A stretch of 64,000 nt of DNA, from contig AP014718.1 of assembly GCA_002370555.1 (NCBI GenBank), forward strand, positions 1,612,001 to 1,676,000, in the 5' to 3' direction. The translations under genes were made by a program, and so were the position numbers. Within the stretch, counting starts at the first letter, position 1; each line of letters starts with the position of its first letter. Below are positions 7,093-20,035 of the stretch, one piece after another. Under the pieces are notes generated by a model. It saw nothing but the letters and a program-made list of their open reading frames with translations, ran no database searches and was not told where the DNA came from. Source of the DNA: Arthrobacter sp. Hiyo4 (GTDB lineage Bacteria; Actinomycetota; Actinomycetes; Actinomycetales; Micrococcaceae).

Positions 7093-8841
7093 GTGCGTGA
7101 GTCGGTAGTGGTTTGACTGTTCCGTAGGTTCGCACCGCGACGGCTCAAGGGCCGGTCTCCTTTTCCGTGAGAAGGGGGCCGGCCTCTTGGCGTTTTCTCG
7201 GAAGAAAGTCCTGGAAGGCTCCTGCGGGGCGCGGTTCGGTGGGGCAGGTTCGGTCCTGGGGCCGTCCCCCGGGATGTTCAGGCGGTGGCGGTGCGGTAAC
7301 TGAAGAGTTTGAGCAGGTTGTGGCAGCCGGCCATCAGCTTCCATTCCCCGGCTGCCTTCTCCAGCCCGCGCAACAGGACGTGTTTGCCTTGCCGGGTGTT
7401 GATTTGTCCGAAGACCGGTTCCACGATGGCTTTGCGCCGGGCGTAGACCGCCTTGCCTTTCTTCGTTTTCAGTTTCCGGGCCATCCGCTCGGTCGGGGTC
7501 GCATCCGCCGGGATCCTGCCCCGTGGCGCCTCAGGGACCGGACGCCCGTGTTTCATCCGCCGTGTAGAGATGAAGAACTCGGTGCCGCCACCGGCTTCAA
7601 GGTCCCTGACGTGCTCCAGGTTGGACGCCGAGCAGTACCCGGCATCGGCGCTCCACTTCGACGGCATGGCGCCCAGGGTGTCCCGGGTGTTCTGGACCAT
7701 CGGGACCAGTTGCTGCACGTCCACCGCGGTGTTGTTCAGCTCGGTGGCAACGATGACCTGCTGTTCTTCATCAACGACGGCCTGCCCGGTGTAGCAGTAG
7801 TGGTAGGAACCGTCCGCGGTCTTCATGATCCTCGCGTCCGGGTCGGTGAAGTTCCGTTGCGCCGTGGGCTTGGGCACGGCCGCGGCCGCGGCCGCGGCCG
7901 CTTCGCCCTTCCCGGAAACATCCTCGTCATCATCCCCGCGGGCTCGGGCCTTCTCCTCGGCCTCACGGCGTGCCTTCTGGGCGGCCTCGGCCTCGATGGA
8001 GGCCGGGCGGTGGCCATCGCGGCGGCGCGCCGGGACCGGTTGGCCAGCTCGGCGGGCAGTTCATCCCCGCGTTTGCCCGGCCCGAAGCGGGCGTCCTCGG
8101 CCGCGTCCACGGTCTTCGCCTCCGCCATCAGGTCGCTGATCTCATCGGCCAACACCTTCTGCTTCTCCGTCAACCGGGCATAACTCATGGCCTTGTGCCG
8201 GGAGGCGTTGGCCCGGACCTTCGTCCCGTCCAGTGCGACATGGCCCAACGAGACCATGCCCGCGGCCCGGCAGAGCTCCAGCGCCTGCAGGAACACGTTG
8301 GCCAGCGCCGCGAGGTGGCGTTCGCGGAACCGCCCGATCGACCGGAAATCCGGGGCCTGCTGGGCACACAACCAACGGAACGCGACCACATCCATGCACG
8401 CTCTTTCCAGTTCCCGCGAGGAACGAACCCCCACGCAGTACCCGTAGAGCAGAATCCGCAGCATCAGCCGCGGATCATACGGCGGCTGGCCCTTCGCCTT
8501 GGCATAGGAAGCATAGAACCGGGTCAGATCCAGTTCCCCATCAACGAGTTCGCCAATGAACCGGGCCAAATGGCCCTGCGGCAACCACTCCTCCAGCGAC
8601 GGCGGGACCAGCATCACCGCATCCGGCTCGAAAGCCTTGAACCGCTTCCTGACCCCGCCATTGGCATCCATCGGCACATCGGCCGGGAGCTCGACCCGCT
8701 CCACGAGCGACTCATCGAACAAACCATCCTGCGCGGAAGAACCGGTAACCATGCCACCGATTCTCCCAGCCACCCCCACCAGGACATGGCTATTCCGTCG
8801 GCGTTTTAAGAATTAGGGCCTGTCATTTCTGACCCACGCAC
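7093..8841 (-). mobile_element. IS1182-family element nested in the IS1380 element
   Basis: The ends start GTGCGTGAGTCGGTAGTG at 7093 and, reversed, GTGCGTGGGTCAGAAATG at 8841. They are flanked by the palindromic duplication CTAG at 7089-7092 and 8842-8845, giving a length of 1749 bp. The first 74 bp recur with one mismatch at 38796-38869. Confidence 0.85.
7278..8752 (-). CDS. IS1182-family transposase (frameshifted)
   Basis: The N-terminal part (from MVTGSSAQDG at 8752) carries the DUF772-type region, with PPYDPRLMLRILLYGY and ALDGTKVRANASRHK. The C-terminal part (to 7278) has VIVATELNNTAVD, KWSADAGYCS and IVEPVFGQINTRQG, giving the DDE catalytic pattern. The two lie in different frames, shifting within 7870-8050, a GC-rich low-complexity stretch (repeated GGCCGC near 7880). 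The element may be active if the shift is a sequence error. An upstream start at 8779 is possible. Confidence 0.8.
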
Positions 8842-8845
8842 CTAG

Positions 8846-9844
8846 CAGGGTCGGTGTCGCACCCGGGTGCAGCGGCTCGGCGCGCAGAAAGATTTTCGTC
8901 CCCGGCGGGTAGTCCTGCAGCGGGATGACCTGCGTGGCGTTGATGACCCAGGCGTCGTCGCGTTCGTTGCCGTCCTGGTCCAGGGCCGGCTGCCAGTATT
9001 TCTTGTCGTTGATCCAGTCGATCATGTGGGCCTTACCGACCGGAACCGGGTACGAGACGGAGAACTGCACGCCGCGCGAATGTAGGTACCAGAGGAACTT
9101 CCGGGACGCGCCGGCGCTGTCGGTGCGGACCAGGATCCTCTCCCCGTCCAGGTCCTCATTCTCACCGTAGAGTGCGTCGGGCAGGACCGCGATGGCGGCC
9201 TCGAAGATGCGGATGTGGTCCTCGGCGTTGTTCGCGGTCGCCCCGCCGTGGCGCAGCAGCACCGCGAGTTCCTCCCCGGTGCCTTGGCCGGAACCGTAAT
9301 CGATGCTGGCGGTGAACGGGGCGAATCCGAACCCGCCCTTGTAGTTTCCGGTGGCTTGTTCCTTCTCGGAGTGCGAGGCCACCAGCGTCGCGTCGAGGTC
9401 GATGACCAGCGGGTCCGCGGCCGTCGCCTTCACCGCGGGGCTGCGGTCCCCTGCGGCTGCCCAGGCCCGCGTCCGCAGTTCCTTGGACAGGGTCGAGAAA
9501 CCGTAATCGAAAACGTCCGGGTTCTTCACGGTGCGTTCAAAGAACCGCGAGACCGTCGCGTTCGAGGGCACTTTCCCGAACACGCCTGGCTGGGAGCGCA
9601 GGATGTCCAGGTCGGAGGCATACTCGCCGCCGGCGGCGAGCATCACCGCCAGCGACCCGAGCAGCCGACCGGGCCGGTGTGAGGCCATCGCGGGGACGAA
9701 CTGGCCCAGCCGGTCCTCGCACAAATCCCGGAACCCGAGGGCGTCGATCAACGACGTCAGGATCCTGGCACCGGCATGGGAGACCAGCGACTGGCCGGTG
9801 AAAGAGACCGGGACGGAGGGGAAGACCTTGGTAGACTGGGGCAT
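8846..9844 (-). pseudogene. IS1380-family transposase, N-terminal part
   Basis: Starts MPQSTKVFPSVPVSF and carries the family DDE landmarks DPLVIDLDATLV and RTDSAGASRKFLWYL. It ends where the IS1182-family element enters after PTLL; the apparent tail GAWVRNDRP is encoded by the inserted element. It is inactive as drawn. Confidence 0.85.
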
Positions 9845-10542: not shown

Positions 10543-10617
10543 CGAAGCCACTCGGAGCGATCCGCGACGGCAGCCGCCTTGCCCGTATTGCGAGGTCTCA
10601 AAAGTGGGAAAAAGGGG

Positions 10618-10634
10618 TGTGCACATTGTGCACC
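10618..10634. promoter_or_regulatory. 17-bp palindrome, copy 5 of 5
   Basis: TGTGCACATTGTGCACC lies 87 bp before tRNA-like remnant 2, nearly the same spacing as copy 1 to remnant 1 (85 bp). The sequence between them is also partly conserved, so the palindrome is part of a repeated element end. Confidence 0.6.
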
Positions 10635-10720
10635 CCTTGGGCGTCGGATAGGGCCGAACCGCCGTCGAACTGAGTCAGATTCCACATGTTTCCGCGAGTT
10701 CCCGGCGTTTTTAGGGGCTG

Positions 10721-10748
10721 GAATGCAGTTCGAGTCCCACCTCGGGCG
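10721..10748 (+). repeat. tRNA-3'-end-like attachment remnant, copy 2
   Basis: Identical over 28 bp to 1428-1455. It marks the probable right end of the island; chromosomal genes (the biotin operon) follow. Confidence 0.6.
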
Positions 10749-10804
10749 CGTGTTTTCCCTGTTCAGGGGCTTGTTGACTTCTGACTGTGCAGAAATGTTC
10801 ACTT

Positions 10805-11138: not shown

Positions 11139-12396
11139 TTACGAGTGATGCGCATAGTTGGATGCCGCTTTACTCGCCGATGGCGGCCGACTTGTTCTCG
11201 GCCTCGTCGATGGATTGTTCGCCACAGTGACGGTACGGGGTGCTTGGAACGACAGGAGCCTGATCCAATCGGGCTGGTACTCCTGCAGATGTACTTCCGC
11301 CAGAACAGTGGCGGTCTCCTGTACAACTATGGCGGCCTCCAGTTCGGCGAGCTTGGCGCCGAGGCAGCGGTGGATGCCGGATCCAAAAACAAGGCCATGG
11401 TCGGTGGATTGACCACGCCGCATCGCTTCCGAAGGCATAGACGGGCTAGAGAGTGCGTCCGGTGAAGTGATGTGGTTGCCGCTCAGTACGAGGAGAATTT
11501 CGGCGCCCGCCGGGATCAGGGTGTCACCAAGGTTCGTGTCGTGGGCGGCCACCCGGCGCCAGGTGGGCACAGATGATTCCGTGGCCAGCACGTTCCGGAC
11601 CACGGTCTTGGAGCCTGCTTCGGATGCCGCGTCCTTCCAGCAGACGGGCGCGGACCCCTCCAGGAGGCGGAAGAAGGTGGTGCTGATCAGCTGGGTGGTT
11701 GTTTCCTGTCCGGCGATCAGCAGGAAGTAGCCCAGGGAGCAGATTTCAGGCGTGGACAGGCCGTGTTCGGCCAAGGATTTGAACAGGTTCCGTCCGGGGC
11801 CACCCTGGATTCAGCGACGAGCTTGCGCAGCCAGAGGTAGAAGTCGGCGGCGCTGTGGGCCAGTTCGAGTTGCCGGTCCTCGTCGGGCCAGCCCCAGAAC
11901 AGCTCCATGGAGTCAAGGCCCCACCCCTTCAGGGCCGCAAGATCCCGAACGGGCAGTCCGAGGAGTTCGAGCATGACGACTGACGGGGAAACGCCGCGAC
12001 TGCCTGCACGAGGTCCACTTGGCCGGAAGAGTCGAGTTGGTTCACGGCGTTCCGTGCCGCTTCCTGGGCCAGTTCCCGGATCCGCGGCTCCATGGCGGCG
12101 ACCGTGGCGGGTGTGAAGAAGCCCGCCACGACCTTGCGGATTCCAGCGTGTGTGTCCGTGTCGTTGCTGGCCAGCACGGGTGGCAAGGCAAAGCGTACGC
12201 GCTGCAGCACGCGCAGGGCGGGCCCTGCCAGGGGCGTCACTGCGATCAGGGCATTCGCGGGGCTGAAGTCGGCGGGCCGGTGCAGGATGTCACGGACCAC
12301 TTCCGGGTCACGCACGACGAGGTACGGGCAGCGGGCGTGGCCGGAGCTTTCCACCCGCGCCTCCGCGGATCCCGCGGCAGTCAAAGCCGGGTTCAT
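11139..12396 (-). CDS. Cytochrome P450 ending the biotin operon, BioI-like by context (frameshifted)
   Basis: The I-helix is AGQETTTQLI and the haem-binding loop VFGSGIHRCLGAKLAE carries the Cys ligand. The N-terminal frame (11990-12396), middle frame (about 11800-11974) and C-terminal frame must be joined by single-base corrections near 11980 and 11800. The expected K-helix ExxR is not visible; the segment reads VRNVLATESSVPTWRR. The ATG at 12396 overlaps the bioD stop by ATGA, making this the last gene of the biotin operon. In Bacillus the P450 BioI cleaves acyl-ACP to supply pimeloyl-ACP, so a pimelate-forming role is plausible but inferred. The exact 3' end is uncertain (11139-11230). Confidence 0.65.
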
Positions 12397-13069
12397 GCGG
12401 GCAGGCCGTTCAGCCAGGCAGCTGCTCCGGCCCGGAAATCCGCAGGGGACAGTTCCGACGCCTGCTCGGGGAGGGCGCCGAGAAAGGGTGCCCGCAGCGT
12501 TCCGAGCACCTGCCGGTTGCCGTGGTGCACGAAGTCAGGGACGCGTGGCCAGCTTCCGAGCACCACACCCATGACCCGAAGTTGCCGCGCTCCCAGCGCT
12601 TCGAGGGTCAGTGCGGTGTGGTTCAGAGTGCCGAGGGCCGGCCGGGCGACGAGCACAAATGCCGCCGCCAGGAGCGATCCGAGGTCTGCCAGGGTGCCGC
12701 CGCCGGAATCCAGCTCCACCAGCAGGCCGCCTGCGCCTTCCACCAGGACGTGATCATGGGACGCGGCGAGCTCGCGGACCCTCTCGGCGTGCGCAGCAAC
12801 CGGGGGAGCGGTGTGCTGTCGAGGGCGGCAGCGGCGACGGGAGCCAGCGGCTGCTGCAGGATGACCCCGGTTTCAGCTGTCACGGCGCCGGCGAGCCGGA
12901 CAATTTCGGCCGCGTCGGAATCGCCGTCGGCGGCGCCTGACTGGCACGGTTTGTACACAGCGACGCTGCGCCCCTTTCCGTGGAGGACGGCGGCGAGGGC
13001 CGCCGTTGTGATGGTCTTTCCGACGCCGGTGTCCGTACCGGTGATCAGGATGATGCCGGGCAGGTTCAT
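12393..13069 (-). CDS. bioD: Dethiobiotin synthetase (frameshift near 12800)
   Basis: Makes dethiobiotin from 7,8-diaminopelargonate, CO2 and ATP. The P-loop ITGTDTGVGKTITTAALA is near the start; VYKPCQSGA and, after the shift, VEGAGGLLVELD are the other family motifs. One base is missing near 12800 (GGGGG run). ATG at 13069 overlaps the bioF stop by ATGA; the stop overlaps the P450 start the same way. Confidence 0.9.
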
Positions 13070-14234
13070 GGAAGTTCCTCCAAAATGCGGCGCAACTCTG
13101 CGCAGCTGTCTTCGATTTCCTTGGGGGTGAGGGTGGCGCGGGCGGTGAGCCGCAGTCGTGAAATTCCGTCCGGAACGGACGGTGGGCGGAAGCAGCCGAT
13201 CCGGACGCCGGCAGTCCGCGCCGCCTCGGCAGCTGCCAAGGCAGATGCGGCGGACGGCATGGCGATGGACTGGACAGCCCCCACTGTCTGCTCGAAAGCG
13301 GCGCCGCGGGATACGAGGGCTGGGGCGAGCCCGGCGGCCAGCGCTGCCGCGTTGCTTTGCACGGATCTGGCCCGCCAAGGCTCATCCCGGATGATCCGCA
13401 CCGCGGCGAGGGCTGCGGCGGCGGAGGCCGGTGCCAGTCCGGTATCGAACATGAAGCTCCGGGCCCGGTTGACGAGGTGCTCCCGCAGCAGGGCGGATCC
13501 CAGGACGGCGCCGCCCTGGCTGCCCAGGGCCTTGGACAGCGTCGCGGTCACGATCACGTTCGGATGCCCGGCCAGGGCTGTACCGGCCACCGCGCCGCAG
13601 CCCTGGAAGTCACCGTTGCCGGTGACTCCGAGGCTGTGGGCCTCGTCGACGAGCAGCACGGCGTCGTGCTCCTCGGCTAGGGCCAGCAGGTCAGCGAGTG
13701 GGGCTTCGTCGCCGAGGACGCTGTAGAGGGATTCGACGGCGATCAGCGCGCGCGGCTCCGGCCGGTCGGCAAGCAGACGGGCAGCGTCCTCCACCCTGTT
13801 GTGGGTGAACGATTCGGTGCGGGAGCGGCTGAGTCGGAATCCGTCGATCATCGAGGCATGGCAGTGTTCGTCCGCGACGATCAGCGTGCCGGGTCCACCG
13901 AGCGCCGTGATCACACCGATGTTGGCCAAATAGCCGGAAGAGAAGACCAGCGCCGTTTCCATCCCGGCCAGGGCGGCCAATTCATGCTCGAGATCCAAAT
14001 GCAGCCGGGTGGTTCCGGCGACTAGGCGCGAGGACGTGGCACCCGCGCCCACAGCGACGCGGCCGCCGCAGCTGCCCCGACAACCCGCGGGTCCGCCGCG
14101 AGGCCCAGATAGTCGTTGCTGGCAAGGTCGATGAACTGTTCATCCGCGGCGCGGGGGAGCGGGCGGCGGATCAGGCCCCGGCGGTCCCGGACTGCGGCCT
14201 GACGCTCAAGCCACTGGATCATCGAGGTGCTCAT
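13066..14234 (-). CDS. bioF: 8-amino-7-oxononanoate synthase (frameshift near 14040)
   Basis: PLP-dependent condensation of pimeloyl thioester with alanine. The N-terminus has DLASNDYLGLAADPR. After a shift near 14040 come GATSSRLVAGTT, VDEAHSLGVTG and ATLSKALGSQGG, which holds the PLP lysine. Length after repair is about 389, normal for the family. It overlaps bioA upstream and bioD downstream by 4 bp. Confidence 0.9.
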
Positions 14235-15585
14235 GACGAGCCTCCGTACCGTGCAGGGAGGCGTTCGTGCACCTCGGCGACGGCCGCCGTCATGCCCGCG
14301 GTGATCTGTTCAACGTCCGCTGCAGTGCTGATGTACGGGGGCATGGTGTAGACGAGGTTCCGGAACGGCCGCACCCAGACCCCGTGGCGGATCGCCGCGG
14401 AGCTGACCGCCGTGACGTCGACGGCGTCGTCCAGCTCAATGACTCCGACGGCGCCGAGGATGCGGACATCCCGGACGGCCTCAAGGTCCAGGGCGGGGCG
14501 AGCCCCGATTCGAGGCCCGCGCCGATCCGGGCGACGTCGGTCCGCCAGGCGCCGTCGCCGATGATGCCGAGGCTCGCGTTGGCAACCGCACACGCCAGCG
14601 GGTTGCCCATAAACGTGGGCCGTGCAGCAGGGCACCGGCCTGGCCGCCGGACACAGCCGACGCAATCTCCGCCGTGCAGAGCATGGCGGCGAGGGTCAGG
14701 TAGCCGCCGGTCAGTGCCTTGCCCACGCACATGATGTCCGGCACGACGCCGGCATGATCGGCCGCGAACAGCTCGCCGGTGCGGCCAAAACCGGTGGCGA
14801 TCTCATCGAAGATGAGCAGCAGGCCATGCCTGTCCGCCACGTGCCGCAGCGCTGTCAGGCATTCGGCCGGGTAGGCGTGCATGCCACCGGCACCCTGCAG
14901 GACCGGTTCGACGATGATCGCGGCCAGCTCCCCGGAATGCGCAGCCGCGATGTCCCCGAGGTCGGACGCCCAGGCACGCACGGTTTCCGGGGTCGCGGCG
15001 GCGGCTGCCGGAGGACGGGGCCCAAACACGTTGCCGGCCAGCAGGCCCGGGAAAGCGGAATGCATCCCGTCCACGGGATCACAGACCCCCATCGCCGCGA
15101 ACGTATCGCCGTGGTACCCGCCGCGGATGCTCAGCAACCGCTGCCTCTGTGGGTGCCCTAATGCTGTCTGGAACTGCACCGCCAGCTTCAGGGCAACCTC
15201 CACGGCAACCGAACCCGAATCCGCGAGGAACACCCGCTCCAAACCCGGCCGTCCTGGTACGGAAGGGCCATGTCCACCAGCCGCTCGGCCAGTTCCACCG
15301 CCGGGGCGTGCGTGAGTCCGCCGAACATCACATGGCTGAAACTCTCCAGCTGCCGCCGCGCGGCGGCGTCCAGCACCGGGTTGCGGTAGCCGTGAATCAC
15401 CGACCACCACGAGGACATCGCATCAACCACCTCGTGGCGTGCGCCGTCCTCGGCCCGAAGCCGCAGCCGCACGCCGTCGGCCGCCTCGACCTCCCACAGC
15501 GGAAGGTCCGGGACGCCGGCGCGTAGGGGTGCCAAAGCCTGGCGCGGTCCCGCTGGATCAGGCCAGGCGGTGTCTCGCCGCTCAT
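14231..15585 (-). CDS. bioA: Adenosylmethionine-8-amino-7-oxononanoate aminotransferase (frameshifted)
   Basis: PLP enzyme forming 7,8-diaminopelargonate. Pieces in order: [74 protein letters not shown] (PLP lysine) and [17 protein letters not shown]. Four apparent single-base shifts (near 15520, 15260, 14615, 14500) separate them, all next to G/C runs. Start ATG at 15585 overlaps the bsaP stop; the stop overlaps the bioF start. Confidence 0.9.
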
Positions 15586-15818
15586 GGTGCGAGCACTCCG
15601 TGGCGGGAGCATTCCGCCGACCAGCCCAACGGAGTCACCTGGACTTTCATACGGCGTCGGCAGGCGGCGCAGTAGCGCGGCGGCTCCATCGCGAGGCGCT
15701 CACGGCAATTGTGGTGAACGTCCGACGCCGGGCTGGCGCCGACGTCGGACGGTTCACCGCAGTGCCCACAGAACTCGGCGGGGGAGTCGGTGGGTGAGCT
15801 CGTCGAAACCCGGTTCAT
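15582..15818 (-). CDS. bsaP: Biotin synthase auxiliary protein
   Basis: A 78-residue, Cys-rich protein with [24 protein letters not shown] and AECSRHG, lying directly after bioB with an ATGA overlap. This matches the BsaP family described in mycobacteria, which supports biotin synthase turnover, probably through its iron-sulfur chemistry. The frame is intact. Assignment rests on size, Cys pattern and position. Confidence 0.8.
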
Positions 15819-16839
15819 AGCGTTTTCTGGAGTTCCTTGATGGGCATGTTAAGTTCCACCAGCAGGTTCAGGTCGGCGTCTGCCGGGCGGCCCAGGGTGG
15901 TCAGGTAGTTGCCGACGATGACGGCGTTGATGCCGCCCATGAGGCCTTGGCGGGTGCCGAGGTCGCCGAGGGTCAGCTCCCGTCCGCCGGCGTAGCGGAG
16001 CACGGTGCGGGGCATCGCCAGCCGGAACGCGGCGATGGCGCGGAGGGCGTCCTTGCCGTCCATGATGCCCTGGTTCTCCAACGGGGTTCCGGGGCGGGGG
16101 TTGAGGAAGTTTAGCGGGACTTCGTGGGGTTCGAGGGCGGCGAGCTGGGCGGCTAGTTCCGCGCGTTGTTCGAGGCTCTCGCCCATGCCGATCAAGGCAC
16201 CGCAGCACAGTTCCATGCCGGCGTCCTTGACCATGTTGCAGGTGTCCAGGCGCTCTTCGTAGCTGTGGGTGGTGACGACCTCCGGGAAGTAGCTGCGCGC
16301 GGTCTCGAGGTTGTGGTTGTAGCGGTGCACGCCCATTCGGCGAGCTGGTCCACCTGGCGCTGGGTCAGCATGCCCAGGGAGCAGGCGATGTTGATGTCCA
16401 CGGCTTCGTTGATCCGGTCGATCGCGAACTTGATCTGGTTCATGAGCTTGATGTCCGGGCCGCGGACGGCGGCGACGATGCAGAACTCGGTGGCCCCGGT
16501 GGCGGCGGTTTCCTTCGCAGCCTTGACCAGCTCGGGGATGTCCAGCCAGACGCCACGAACGGGGGAGTCGAACAGGCCGGACTGGCTGCAGAAATGGCAG
16601 TCCTCGGGGCAGCCACCGGTCTTGATGGAAATGATGCCCTCCACCTCGACATCCTCACCGCAATGCCTGAGCCGGACCTCGTGGGCGAGCTGGAGGACGG
16701 CGGGCAGATCCCGGTCCGGCAGCCTGAGGATTTCCACCAGCTGGCTTTCGGAGAGGCCCATGCCCTGCTCCAGAACCTGTGTCCTGGCGGTCTCGAGGAT
16801 GGTGCCGGGGTTGGCCTGTAGGTCTGGCTGCATCGTCAT
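15815..16839 (-). CDS. bioB: Biotin synthase, first gene of the operon (frameshift near 16335)
   Basis: Radical-SAM enzyme inserting sulfur into dethiobiotin. The cluster motif is [10 protein letters not shown]. Other family motifs are [22 protein letters not shown] and [11 protein letters not shown] single-base loss near 16335 separates AEWACT from [10 protein letters not shown] chose ATG at 16839 ([12 protein letters not shown]) with AAAGGAC upstream; the open frame extends to 17016 without family support. The stop overlaps the bsaP start by ATGA, so six genes from here to the P450 form one coupled operon. Confidence 0.9.
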
Positions 16840-17041
16840 CGAAAGTCCTTTGGGGTGCATAGCTGCGGATATTGCCTCGGAACAAACGCTAATTCCCCAA
16901 CTGGAGGCGAGATTTTGTTGGGTTCCGACAAAGTGATGAAGCTGATATTGGACGGACCAGGTGCTGCCCCAAGTGGCGCTGGCGATCGGCTGGCCATCCT
17001 GTGCGCGAGGCAGCAAGTGCCTACCCTAGAAGGAAAGCGAC

Positions 17042-17552: not shown

Positions 17553-18584
17553 ATGAAAGCAATCGTGTACTGTGCCACGGGCGATCCGTCTGTCCTCGAG
17601 CTCGTCGACCGCGAGAGCCGCGATCCGGGGCGTGGGGAGGTGCGCATAAGGATCATCGTGTCCGCAGTGAACCCCACCGACTGGAAGTCGCGCCGCGGCG
17701 CGAAACCGGGCGAGCCACTGCCCTTCGCAGAGGTCGTGCCGAACCAAGACGGCGCCGGAGTGGTGGACGCCGTCGGACCCGGCGTCGAGCATCTCCAGGT
17801 CGGTGACAGGGTTTGGCTAGCCCTGGCTGCCTACCAGCGCGCCGACGGCGGGACAGCCCAGGAGTTCGCCGTCCTTTCGGCCGAGCGGGTCTTTCCGCTC
17901 CCGGAGAACGCCGGGTTCGACCTCGGCGCAAGCCTTGGCGTTCCCGCGATCACCGCCCACCGGGCCCTGACCATCGCCGAGGACGGCCCGCGGCGGCTGC
18001 ACCCGGGAACCTTGGACGGCAAAGTAGTTCTCGTCGCGGGAGGGGCCGGCGCCGTGGGCCATGCGGCAATCCAGCTCGCAAAGTGGGCCGGCGCTGTCGT
18101 GATCACGACCGTAAGCGGACCGGCGAAGGCTGCGCTGGTCACGGCCGCCGGCGCCGATCACGTCATCAATTACCGGGAAACCGACGCGGCCACGGAGATC
18201 CGCCGGATCGCTCCCAACGGCGTCGACCAGATCGTGGAGGTGGCACCCGCGCAGAACGCCGAACTCGACCTGGCAGTGATCCGCAACCGCGGCTCTATCG
18301 CGGTCTACGCCAACATCGGCGGCGACCAGATGAGCCTGGACGTGCGCAGGCATTTCAGCCTCAATGTCCGCTACCAGTTCGTGCTGCTCTACACCGTTGG
18401 CATGGCGGCGGTGCACGCCGCCGCCGAGGACATCAATGCGGCCATCGTCGACGGAGCCCTTCCGGTGGGTGAGGCCGCAGGCCTGCCGCTGCATCGCTTT
18501 GACCTGGCGGACACGGCTGCGGCCCACGCAGCGGTGGAAGAGAGCATCGTCGGCAAGGTGCTGATCGATGTGTCATCGGGCTAG
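17553..18584 (+). CDS. NADPH:quinone reductase-type medium-chain dehydrogenase
   Basis: Intact, 343 residues. The N-terminal GroES-like domain includes VSAVNPTDWKSRRG and the C-terminal Rossmann domain has VLVAGGAGAVGHAAIQLAKW near residue 155. No structural-zinc cysteines are seen, so it belongs to the zinc-free quinone oxidoreductase branch. It likely reduces quinones or enones with NADPH in the cytoplasm. The TAG stop lies exactly at the junction with the following IS630 relic. Confidence 0.85.
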   Translation: MKAIVYCATGDPSVLELVDRESRDPGRGEVRIRIIVSAVNPTDWKSRRGAKPGEPLPFAEVVPNQDGAGVVDAVGPGVEHLQVGDRVWLALAAYQRADGGTAQEFAVLSAERVFPLPENAGFDLGASLGVPAITAHRALTIAEDGPRRLHPGTLDGKVVLVAGGAGAVGHAAIQLAKWAGAVVITTVSGPAKAALVTAAGADHVINYRETDAATEIRRIAPNGVDQIVEVAPAQNAELDLAVIRNRGSIAVYANIGGDQMSLDVRRHFSLNVRYQFVLLYTVGMAAVHAAAEDINAAIVDGALPVGEAAGLPLHRFDLADTAAAHAAVEESIVGKVLIDVSSG

Positions 18585-19150
18585 TGTCCTGCGCCTGAAG
18601 TTCGCTTCAAAAGTCTGCCGAGTGATTCGAGGATCTGCTGCGCGGTTTTGGTCCAGATGAATGGGGTGGGGTTATCGTTCCATGCTTTGACCCAACTGCG
18701 GAGGTCGGCTTCGAGGGCCTGGACGCTGCGGTGGTCGCTGCGCCGCAGGAGGTCCTCGGTGACGAAGCCGAAGAACCGTTCGACCTGGTTGATCCAGGAC
18801 GAGTAGGTCGGGGTGAAATGCATATGGAAGCGGGGGTGCTTTTCCAGCCATGCTTTGACGGTCGGCGTCTTGTGGGTTTGATAGTTATCGCAGATCAGGT
18901 GCACGTCCAGGTCCGCCGGGATCTGGGAGTCGATCTTGATCAGGAAACTGCGGAACTCTGTGGCGCGGTGCTTGCGGTGCAGGCTGGAGATCACTTAGCC
19001 GTCCGCGGTGTTCAGTGCCGCGAATAGGGTGGTGGTCCCGTGCCGGACGTAGTCGTGGGTCCGTTTCTCAGGCATGCCCGGCATCGTCGGAAATGCCGGC
19101 TGGGACCGGGCCAGCGCCTGGATCTGGGTCTTCTCGTCTGATGTGAAGTC
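18581..19150 (-). mobile_element. IS630-family relic
   Basis: The minus strand encodes the C-terminal part of an IS630-type transposase: LDVHLICDNYQTHKT, then HFTPTYSSWINQVERFFG (DDE region). Upstream, [17 protein letters not shown] and [19 protein letters not shown]-like sequence continues to about 19150, with an in-frame TAA near 18996. The N-terminal third is missing. The left end abuts the QOR stop at a CTAG, in keeping with TA-targeted insertion. Confidence 0.75.
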
Positions 19151-19224
19151 ACCGGTTATGTGAAGTTTCTGGCGTCTGTGGTGGTGAGCGGCTTGACGGG
19201 CGCCGACTTCTTCGCATAACCGGT
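19151..19224. repeat. Inverted repeat flanking a 44-bp spacer
   Basis: ACCGGTTATGTGAAG (19151-19165) is mirrored by CTTCGCATAACCGGT (19210-19224), 14 of 15 matching. It lies between the IS630 relic and the truncated tyrosine recombinase and could be a recombination site or an element end. Confidence 0.5.
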
Positions 19225-19279
19225 GGATTCAGATCGCTTGGCGTAGCCAGGTCAGCAGATCCCGCCGGGCGGTCTGGTC

Positions 19280-20035
19280 CTAGTTGCTTGTTCCGAGGGT
19301 CTTGGCGGCGGCTGCTTCGATGGCTTGGCGTTTCATTTCGGGGCTGGCTTTGGCGTAGATCTCGGTGGTGATGACGGAGGCGTGGCCGAGTATGTCGCGG
19401 ATGTAGATCAGATTGACGCCGTTTTCCAGTAGATGCATTGCCTTCGAATGGCGCAGCACGTGGGGCGAAACGGTCGTGGGGACGAGTTCGGGACGGTCGG
19501 CGTGCGTGGCCTGGGCGCTTTTGGCGAGTATGTAAGCGGCGCCGGCGCGTCCCAGCCGTTGGTTGGCTCTGTTGGCAAACACCGGACCGGTGGGATCCTG
19601 TGGCAGTGTGCTGACGTGCTGGGCAAGGATCACGGCGGCCTGTGGTGTCAGTGGAACGACCTGGTTTTGCGGCCCTTTCCGGTGAGAGTCGCGCTGGCGG
19701 GTTTGTCGAGATGAAGGCCGGCAAATGACAGGTCGTAGGTTTTTTGGCCTCTGGCCGCGGTGTCGTAAAGGGTCGTCAGCAGCGCCAGGTCGCGCGGTCC
19801 GCGACGTTTGGCGTGCTCCAGCAGCAGCCCGATCGCTTCCAGGGGCAGGTAGTCGATGGCGGGCTCGGGAGCTTGGGCGGCTTTGAGGCTGAAGACTTGT
19901 TGGGCCTGTGCGATTTGTTCGGAGGCTTCGGTTTGAACGCATCGGAAAAACGATTTCAACGCCGCTAGGCGCTGGTTGGCGGTGGCGGCGGAGCAGCCCC
20001 TGTCGGTGCACAGCCAATCTTGGAATGGTCCACCA
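19280..20035 (-). pseudogene. Tyrosine recombinase/integrase, 5'-truncated and frameshifted
   Basis: The C-terminal catalytic domain is clear: SPHVLRHSKAMHLLENG, DILGHASVITTEIYAKA (H-x-x-R, G-H and the Tyr nucleophile). Before it lie YLPLEAIGLLLEHAKRRG and LYDTAARGQ, where the first catalytic Arg sits. Homology starts abruptly near 20035 with FQDWLCTDRGCSAATANQR, so the core-binding domain is incomplete; one or more frameshifts lie near 19700-19740. It is probably non-functional and marks the left edge of the catabolic island. Confidence 0.75.

Follow-up and report, generated by a model that had tools for sequence, protein, structure and literature searches.

BioI (P450BioI, CYP107H1) of Bacillus subtilis is a cytochrome P450 encoded in a biotin operon, and pimeloyl-acyl carrier protein (pimeloyl-ACP) is its proposed product. 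In the literature passages considered here, BioI is the sole P450 proposed to make pimelate in primary metabolism, and it is dispensable in its own host, as its loss hardly affects biotin synthesis in B. subtilis (PMC11089781). Here, we describe a biotin operon of the order bioB-bsaP-bioA-bioF-bioD-P450 in a stretch of 64,000 nucleotides from Arthrobacter sp. Hiyo4 (contig AP014718.1, positions 1,612,001 to 1,676,000 of the forward strand; hereafter, the window), in which it occupies the minus strand from position 16839 down to 11139. The preliminary description of the window had suggested that the P450 may fill the role of BioI in Bacillus and provide the pimelate moiety. A role as pimelate supplier is well supported by genomics, namely by gene order, co-occurrence with BioF, and BioF-P450 fusions. 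The comparison with BioI holds as a likeness of proposed role, and not as orthology.

Three further systems resemble parts of this locus. In the Streptomyces mkp cluster, the P450 MkpG, which is homologous to BioI, adjoins the BioF-like enzyme MkpD and is needed to form alpha-methyl-7-keto-8-aminopelargonic acid (alpha-methyl-KAPA), deletion of either gene abolishing the product according to the portions of PMC13336041 used here. Thus far the arrangement is like ours, an actinobacterial P450 beside a BioF-type enzyme; however, the mkp cluster belongs to secondary metabolism and has its own carrier protein and ketosynthase, and we set it beside the P450 of the window by description rather than by sequence. 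Natural fusions of biotin enzymes named in excerpts of PMC9544090 are BioAD and BioWF. BioWF joins an enzyme making a pimeloyl thioester to BioF, as do the fusions described below, but BioW is an acyl-CoA ligase in the N-terminal position, whereas the P450 of our fusions is C-terminal. Finally, bsaP (biotin synthase auxiliary protein) directly follows bioB in mycobacteria, which is its usual place in actinobacteria, and the cysteines of M. tuberculosis BsaP (Cys44/47/64) have the same spacing as those of the window BsaP (passages of PMC11099021). The window bsaP likewise lies directly 3' of bioB, but inside a complete six-gene operon.

An annotated counterpart of the operon lies on plasmid NZ_CP084557.1 of Arthrobacter sp. 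FW306-05-C, with the same genes in the same order and 83.8% DNA identity over the aligned 80% of the query, and comparison with it confirms the gene identities. Unlike the window, it is a 215 kb plasmid typed as conjugative; its P450 is annotated just as "cytochrome P450", and bsaP is missing from its listed gene table.

We favor, with a probability of roughly 0.7, the reading that this coupled operon is intact in the cell and that its last gene encodes a dedicated heme-thiolate P450 making a pimeloyl thioester for BioF. The P450 would take a longer acyl chain, probably on ACP, and cleave it oxidatively to a C7 pimeloyl thioester, probably pimeloyl-ACP, which would be passed at once to BioF. 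BioF, BioA, and BioD would then lead to dethiobiotin, into which BioB with BsaP would insert sulfur. The steps from BioF onward rest on established family functions. The P450 step is likely on the grounds of genomic association, the BioI and MkpG precedents, and the fusions; the reaction, its substrate and carrier, and an in vivo requirement for the P450 are inferred.

Association of the P450 with biotin genes

Genomes of GTDB species were scanned with two P450 peptide motifs, blind to neighboring genes, and the best 80 of 179 relatives, i.e., those most similar to the query, were kept. Biotin genes stood beside the P450 at all 80 loci. The gene order of the window was found at 50 loci and the order bioB-bioA-bioF-P450-bioD at 26; the gene sets of the other four were partial. 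Three of these four loci are at contig ends, and the fourth, L081, comprises bioA-bioF-bioD-P450 with neither bioB nor bsaP nearby. The genera spanned by these loci include Arthrobacter, Pseudarthrobacter, Paenarthrobacter, Sinomonas, Kocuria, Zhihengliuella, Knoellia, Salinibacterium, Cryobacterium, and Kribbella. In Paenarthrobacter aurescens TC1, the complete set of six is present in the order of the window. A class-wide sample of 197 genomes, which is less biased, contained 14 P450 hits, of which nine were strong (at least 241 bits) and five fell below this limit and were not counted as bio-type; one hit of 209 bits (G231) had no biotin gene in its stretch. Eight of the nine strong P450s, that of Hiyo4 included, lay with or within about 5 kb of biotin genes. 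Other arrangements were bioA-bioF-bioD-bioB-bsaP-P450 (L160) and one locus in which bioF did not adjoin the P450 (L162).

Among the 80 loci, bsaP follows bioB in 50, and a BsaP-like cysteine motif is likewise found in 50; the 30 loci lacking the motif comprise the four partial sets and the 26 operons with the P450 between bioF and bioD. Those 26 operons (among L105-L135) gave no bsaP match, and their BioB is of a different type, with 32-38% identity. Within the loci kept, bsaP goes only with the BioB type of operons ending in bioD-P450.

Co-occurrence was counted in 149 genomes of the family, with strong BioF defined as at least 229 bits (next match 204) and bio-type P450 as at least 239 bits (next 167), both limits having been chosen after the gaps in the lists were seen. 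Strong BioF occurred in 54 genomes and the P450 in 44: both were present in 43, BioF alone in 11, the P450 alone in one, and neither in 94. The P450 was accordingly present in 43 of 54 genomes with BioF versus 1 of 95 without it (Fisher p = 7e-26, uncorrected for descent), and in the single P450-only genome (G162) the gene lies at base 98 of its contig, at a contig end. In 42 of the 43 double positives (own genome uncounted), the two genes shared contig and strand, with 8-754 bases between match ends. Genus names were available for 132 of the 149 genomes; because 13 of the 14 genera with double-positive genomes also contain genomes having neither gene, BioF and the P450 seem to be gained or lost together. 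Tam, discussed below, was counted at E of at most 1e-20 and occurred in 113 of the 149 genomes, namely in 45 of the 54 that have BioF and in 68 of the 95 that lack it (p = 0.12); four genomes with both BioF and the P450 had no Tam hit. The P450 tracks BioF, and Tam does not.

In five genomes of three genera (G165, G196, G147, G175, and G070), BioF and the P450 are joined in one open frame with no stop between them. The fused frames comprise 746-997 codons from stop to stop, with BioF first and the P450 second, and the linkers span 33-49 codons between match ends. The linker of one fusion (L142) contains no in-frame ATG, GTG, or TTG, and those of the others contain GTG only. A predicted model of one fusion (mean predicted local distance difference test score [pLDDT] 82; predicted template modeling score [pTM] 0.53) suggests confidently placed residues within each domain, and not a confident placement of the domains relative to each other. 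In the titles and abstract openings searched, with subscription journals mostly outside the search, we found no report of a BioF-P450 fusion or of this P450 in biotin operons of the Arthrobacter type.

Sequence and structural features of the P450

The motif names used for the window gene and its relatives follow general P450 knowledge, apart from those found in the paper on CYP157 cited below. The protein passes the Pfam P450 family (PF00067) weakly, with 24.8-36.4 bits in three relatives and 22.9 bits for the C-terminal piece of the window gene, against a cut-off of 22.8. The window gene encodes the heme loop FGSGIHRCLG and the I-helix sequence AGQETTT, and lacks the ExxR motif, having NVLA at the position. 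Motifs could be read in 77 of the 80 relatives, the remaining three not being read through: all 77 keep the heme-cysteine loop (FGxGxHxCxG) and the I-helix AGQETT, and the glutamate of the K-helix ExxR is absent at the position in all 77. As four of the five BioF-P450 fusions retain ExxR, its loss may be secondary. A canonical ExxR is also missing from a known P450 family, CYP157 (PMC3599690, in part).

Identity to BioI was 21.8-27.8% over 277-349 columns in 31 members, below the more than 40% stated for members of one P450 family in the same source (PMC3599690), and this places the P450, as judged from sequence, outside the BioI (CYP107H) family rather than among its orthologues. In these 31 aligned members, the stretch from the K-helix region to the heme loop was shortened or unlike that of BioI. 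A profile search of the PDB returned CREJ and CYP116B chains first, and BioI was outside the best 60 of 301 matches. CREJ and CYP116B also came first in a structure search, in which P450BioI-ACP complexes appeared from rank 11, with TM (template modeling) scores of 0.66-0.70 by query length. The P450 of the operon therefore shares with BioI its place in a biotin operon, the proposed product pimeloyl-ACP, and a similar fold, but differs in lacking ExxR, in being closer in sequence to CREJ and CYP116B chains, in its fusion to BioF in some genomes, and in the absence of BioW alongside it.

Organization of the operon

The preliminary description listed the six genes in the present order with 4-bp overlaps at all junctions and bsaP between bioB and bioA, all of which the sequence and the comparison with the annotated plasmid operon bear out; the coding strand reads ATGA at each of the five junctions (Table 1). 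All 50 junctions of ten relatives offer an in-frame start at exactly -4. Across 47 operons of the same order, a set that overlaps with these ten and omits three Kribbella loci, the 26 loci of the other order, and the four partial sets, a -4 overlap was found at 226 of 235 junctions (45, 45, 45, 46, and 45 of 47 for the successive junctions). Since 53 of 223 long open frames in relatives (23.8%) finish with RTGA, a lone overlap means little; the conserved set of overlaps is not chance. We read the six genes as a single, translationally coupled biotin operon in a soil bacterium of the Arthrobacter type. The stoichiometric expression of BsaP with BioB that had been proposed, or equal protein amounts more generally, may follow from such overlaps.

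Table 1. Positions of the operon genes and their overlaps in the window
Feature	Position	Strand	Evidence
bioB, biotin synthase (BsaP-type)	15815..16839	-	tblastn vs intact BioB of NZ_CP084557.1, 86% and 95% identity, two frames
bsaP, biotin synthase auxiliary protein, 78 aa	15582..15818	-	single open frame; cysteine spacing C50-x2-C53-x16-C70
bioA, 7,8-diaminopelargonic acid (DAPA) aminotransferase	14231..15585	-	tblastn pieces, successive frames
bioF, KAPA synthase	13066..14234	-	tblastn, 79% and 90% identity, two frames
bioD, dethiobiotin synthase	12393..13069	-	tblastn, 86% and 75% identity, two frames
P450-family gene	11139..12396	-	tblastn, three frames, 72-86% identity; motifs from translations
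bioB/bsaP ATGA overlap	15815..15818	-	sequence
bsaP/bioA ATGA overlap	15582..15585	-	sequence
bioA/bioF ATGA overlap	14231..14234	-	sequence
bioF/bioD ATGA overlap	13066..13069	-	sequence
bioD/P450 ATGA overlap	12393..12396	-	sequence

Upstream of bioB, no BioQ site (TGAAC-N3-GTTCA) was found in 13 upstream regions, those of the window and 12 relatives, of 41 collected. The word CCAACAAAATC at positions 16911-16921 recurs in the upstream regions of relatives and is possibly an operator. CCAACAAAA is present in 20 of the 41 upstream regions collected.

Alternative explanations

Several observations weigh against the P450 as the source of pimelate. The lost ExxR glutamate, together with the poorly predicted stretch before the heme loop (311-341, with pLDDT below 50 in a P450 model of mean pLDDT 79), could mean weak or changed catalysis. 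Eleven of the 54 family genomes with BioF lack the P450, and these apparently make KAPA by some other way; six of them have Tam and five have neither (L145, L146, L149, L150, and L155, of genus g27). No pimelate gene was recognized at the P450-less loci, for which open frames were listed at nine of the eleven by a rule based on GC3 (G+C content at third codon positions) that can miss genes, and nine frames from five of the loci were compared with Pfam. The matches were PEP mutase, luciferase-like, acyl-CoA dehydrogenase, FMO-like, FGGY kinase, TetR, HpcH-type lyase, and formate/nitrite transporter, and one frame had no match. Of the 197 genomes sampled across the class, 95 have BioF and just nine the strong bio-type P450, and one of these nine (G373) has no biotin gene in about 7 kb on either side of the P450. 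Moreover, a BioC-BioH route in the Hiyo4 genome itself, built from a Tam homologue and BioH-like hydrolases, is possible judging from its gene content.

Under this last possibility, pimelate would be made, as it is in Mycobacterium, by Tam/BioC- and BioH-type enzymes encoded at scattered sites, with the P450 serving biotin in some other way, through a redundant or scavenging route or by chain trimming. In M. smegmatis, which uses Tam and three BioH, Tam reportedly acts as the BioC (portions of PMC9302846). The preliminary description had held bioC, bioH, and bioW to be absent, which stands for BioW, without a match in the Hiyo4 genome, and needs qualification for the other two. The BioC model TIGR02072 gave 11 hits in this genome, all under the cut-off. 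The strongest of them is part of a Tam homologue, which as a broken copy reaches 184 bits with NF010703 against a cut-off of 320. The BioH model TIGR01738 gave 14 hits, again all under the cut-off; since 13 of 14 control genomes also give hits, one over the cut-off, such hits are uninformative. bioC/bioH-type genes elsewhere in the genome, which the preliminary description named among the findings that would speak against it, are thus possible on these results. The wide distribution of Tam in the family, its presence in six of the 11 P450-less genomes with BioF, and the dispensability of BioI in B. subtilis also fit this explanation. Yet Tam does not track BioF as the P450 does, four genomes with BioF and the P450 lack a Tam hit, and it is the P450, not Tam, that sits in the operon and is fused to BioF, and we consider this explanation unlikely. 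The P450-like protein might instead be a non-oxygenase scaffold or activator of BioF, comparable to P450-derived glycosyltransferase activators (TIGR04515). Its fusion to BioF, the missing ExxR glutamate of all readable relatives, and weak matches of two of three proteins to TIGR04515 speak for this. However, these matches (44.2 and 44.5 bits) fall far below the family cut-off of 343, the heme-cysteine loop and AGQETT are kept in all 77 readable relatives, four of five fused forms retain ExxR, and the CYP157 precedent concerns P450s that also lack the canonical motif; a scaffold role is very unlikely. That the operon makes a biotin analogue or antimetabolite rather than biotin is suggested by P450s beside BioF-like enzymes in Streptomyces antimetabolite clusters (PMC13336041, in part), but the only strong BioF of the Hiyo4 genome is that of the operon (the second match has 166 bits), and the operon is a complete ring-assembly set plus bsaP with no extra gene, which leaves this idea most improbable.

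The remaining alternative is that the Hiyo4 operon is a pseudogene cluster. Relative to NZ_CP084557.1, nine one-base deletions, on which the preliminary description is silent, fall in five of the six genes: one in bioB (near 16331), four in bioA (near 15507, 15265, 14617, and 14495), one each in bioF (near 14047) and bioD (near 12807), and two in the P450 gene (near 11990 and 11799); bsaP is the sole gene read in one frame. All nine lie at or beside runs of G or C, and the remaining length differences from the plasmid preserve the frame or sit in divergent ends. To count frameshift-like breaks, we used a hidden Markov model of codon usage, whose training set was the long open frames in ten stretches of 20 kb from two relatives. 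In the Hiyo4 genome, a single contig estimated as 92.28% complete and 5.02% contaminated, all ten stretches sampled contained breaks, 111 over their 168 kb of coding sequence (6.6 per 10 kb), versus 11 in 167 kb (0.66 per 10 kb) in the relatives, for which the training stretches themselves (L038-L047) were counted; four relatives' operons outside the training set had zero breaks. By the same model, the whole window has 29 breaks in 50.5 kb and the operon six in 5.1 kb (11.8 per 10 kb), a rate above the genome's own but from too few events to be firm. When one Hiyo4 stretch (L034) was compared with intact genes of relatives, four genes aligned and only one of them showed a clear change of frame; this is less than in the operon, although four genes are not enough to give a rate. 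On either side of the operon breaks, amino-acid identity remains high, and the Tam gene of Hiyo4 is likewise split over two frames. Given a break rate about ten times that of relatives across the sampled stretches, the breaks look mainly like assembly errors rather than decay, and the operon is presumably intact in the living cell. The pseudogene reading was set aside after this count, and we regard it as quite unlikely. With the raised break rate, false pseudogenes are to be expected in gene-level readings of the window.

Genomic surroundings and mobility

Among 36 other genomes of the genus, eight have the P450, and all eight carry the five other biotin genes. Three plasmids of Arthrobacter or Paenarthrobacter (L018, L019, and NZ_CP053546.1) bear the locus, two records with the operon and the third with at least the P450; two of the three are typed as conjugative. 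On the basis of this distribution and these plasmid locations, biotin prototrophy seems patchy and partly mobile here. In L018, IS110 transposase genes stand on both sides of the biotin operon. In the window, transposase- and integrase-like frames recognized by eye in the translations flank the operon region at 7823-9844 and 18581-20017. Within about 55 kb, a stretch of about 150 bases at 10614-10770 has three more copies at 73-75% identity, and 44 of its bases have one further copy at 86% identity (copies on the Hiyo4 contig, G000:C1, near 1587245, 1610026, 1613317, and 1568243). By eye, this repeat resembles the 3' end of a tRNA, and the copies may be sites at which integrated elements attach. 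ARAGORN, applied to the window, predicted no tRNA.

Biological implications

The P450 of this operon is likely a new form of P450 route to pimelate. In a broader form, toward which we lean only a little past even odds, many Micrococcaceae, along with some other actinobacteria, would use as their working pimeloyl-thioester synthase a P450 family that is distinct from BioI and has a degenerate K-helix. This P450 would pass what it makes straight to BioF, and in some genomes the transfer would take place inside a single BioF-P450 polypeptide. To our knowledge, P450-made pimelate as the main route to biotin would, if true, be the first case. The making of pimelate for biotin is poorly known in many actinobacteria, and the present P450, linked to BioF by operon, co-occurrence, and fusion, makes the old idea of P450-made pimelate directly testable in culturable soil strains and offers a one-protein P450-BioF module.

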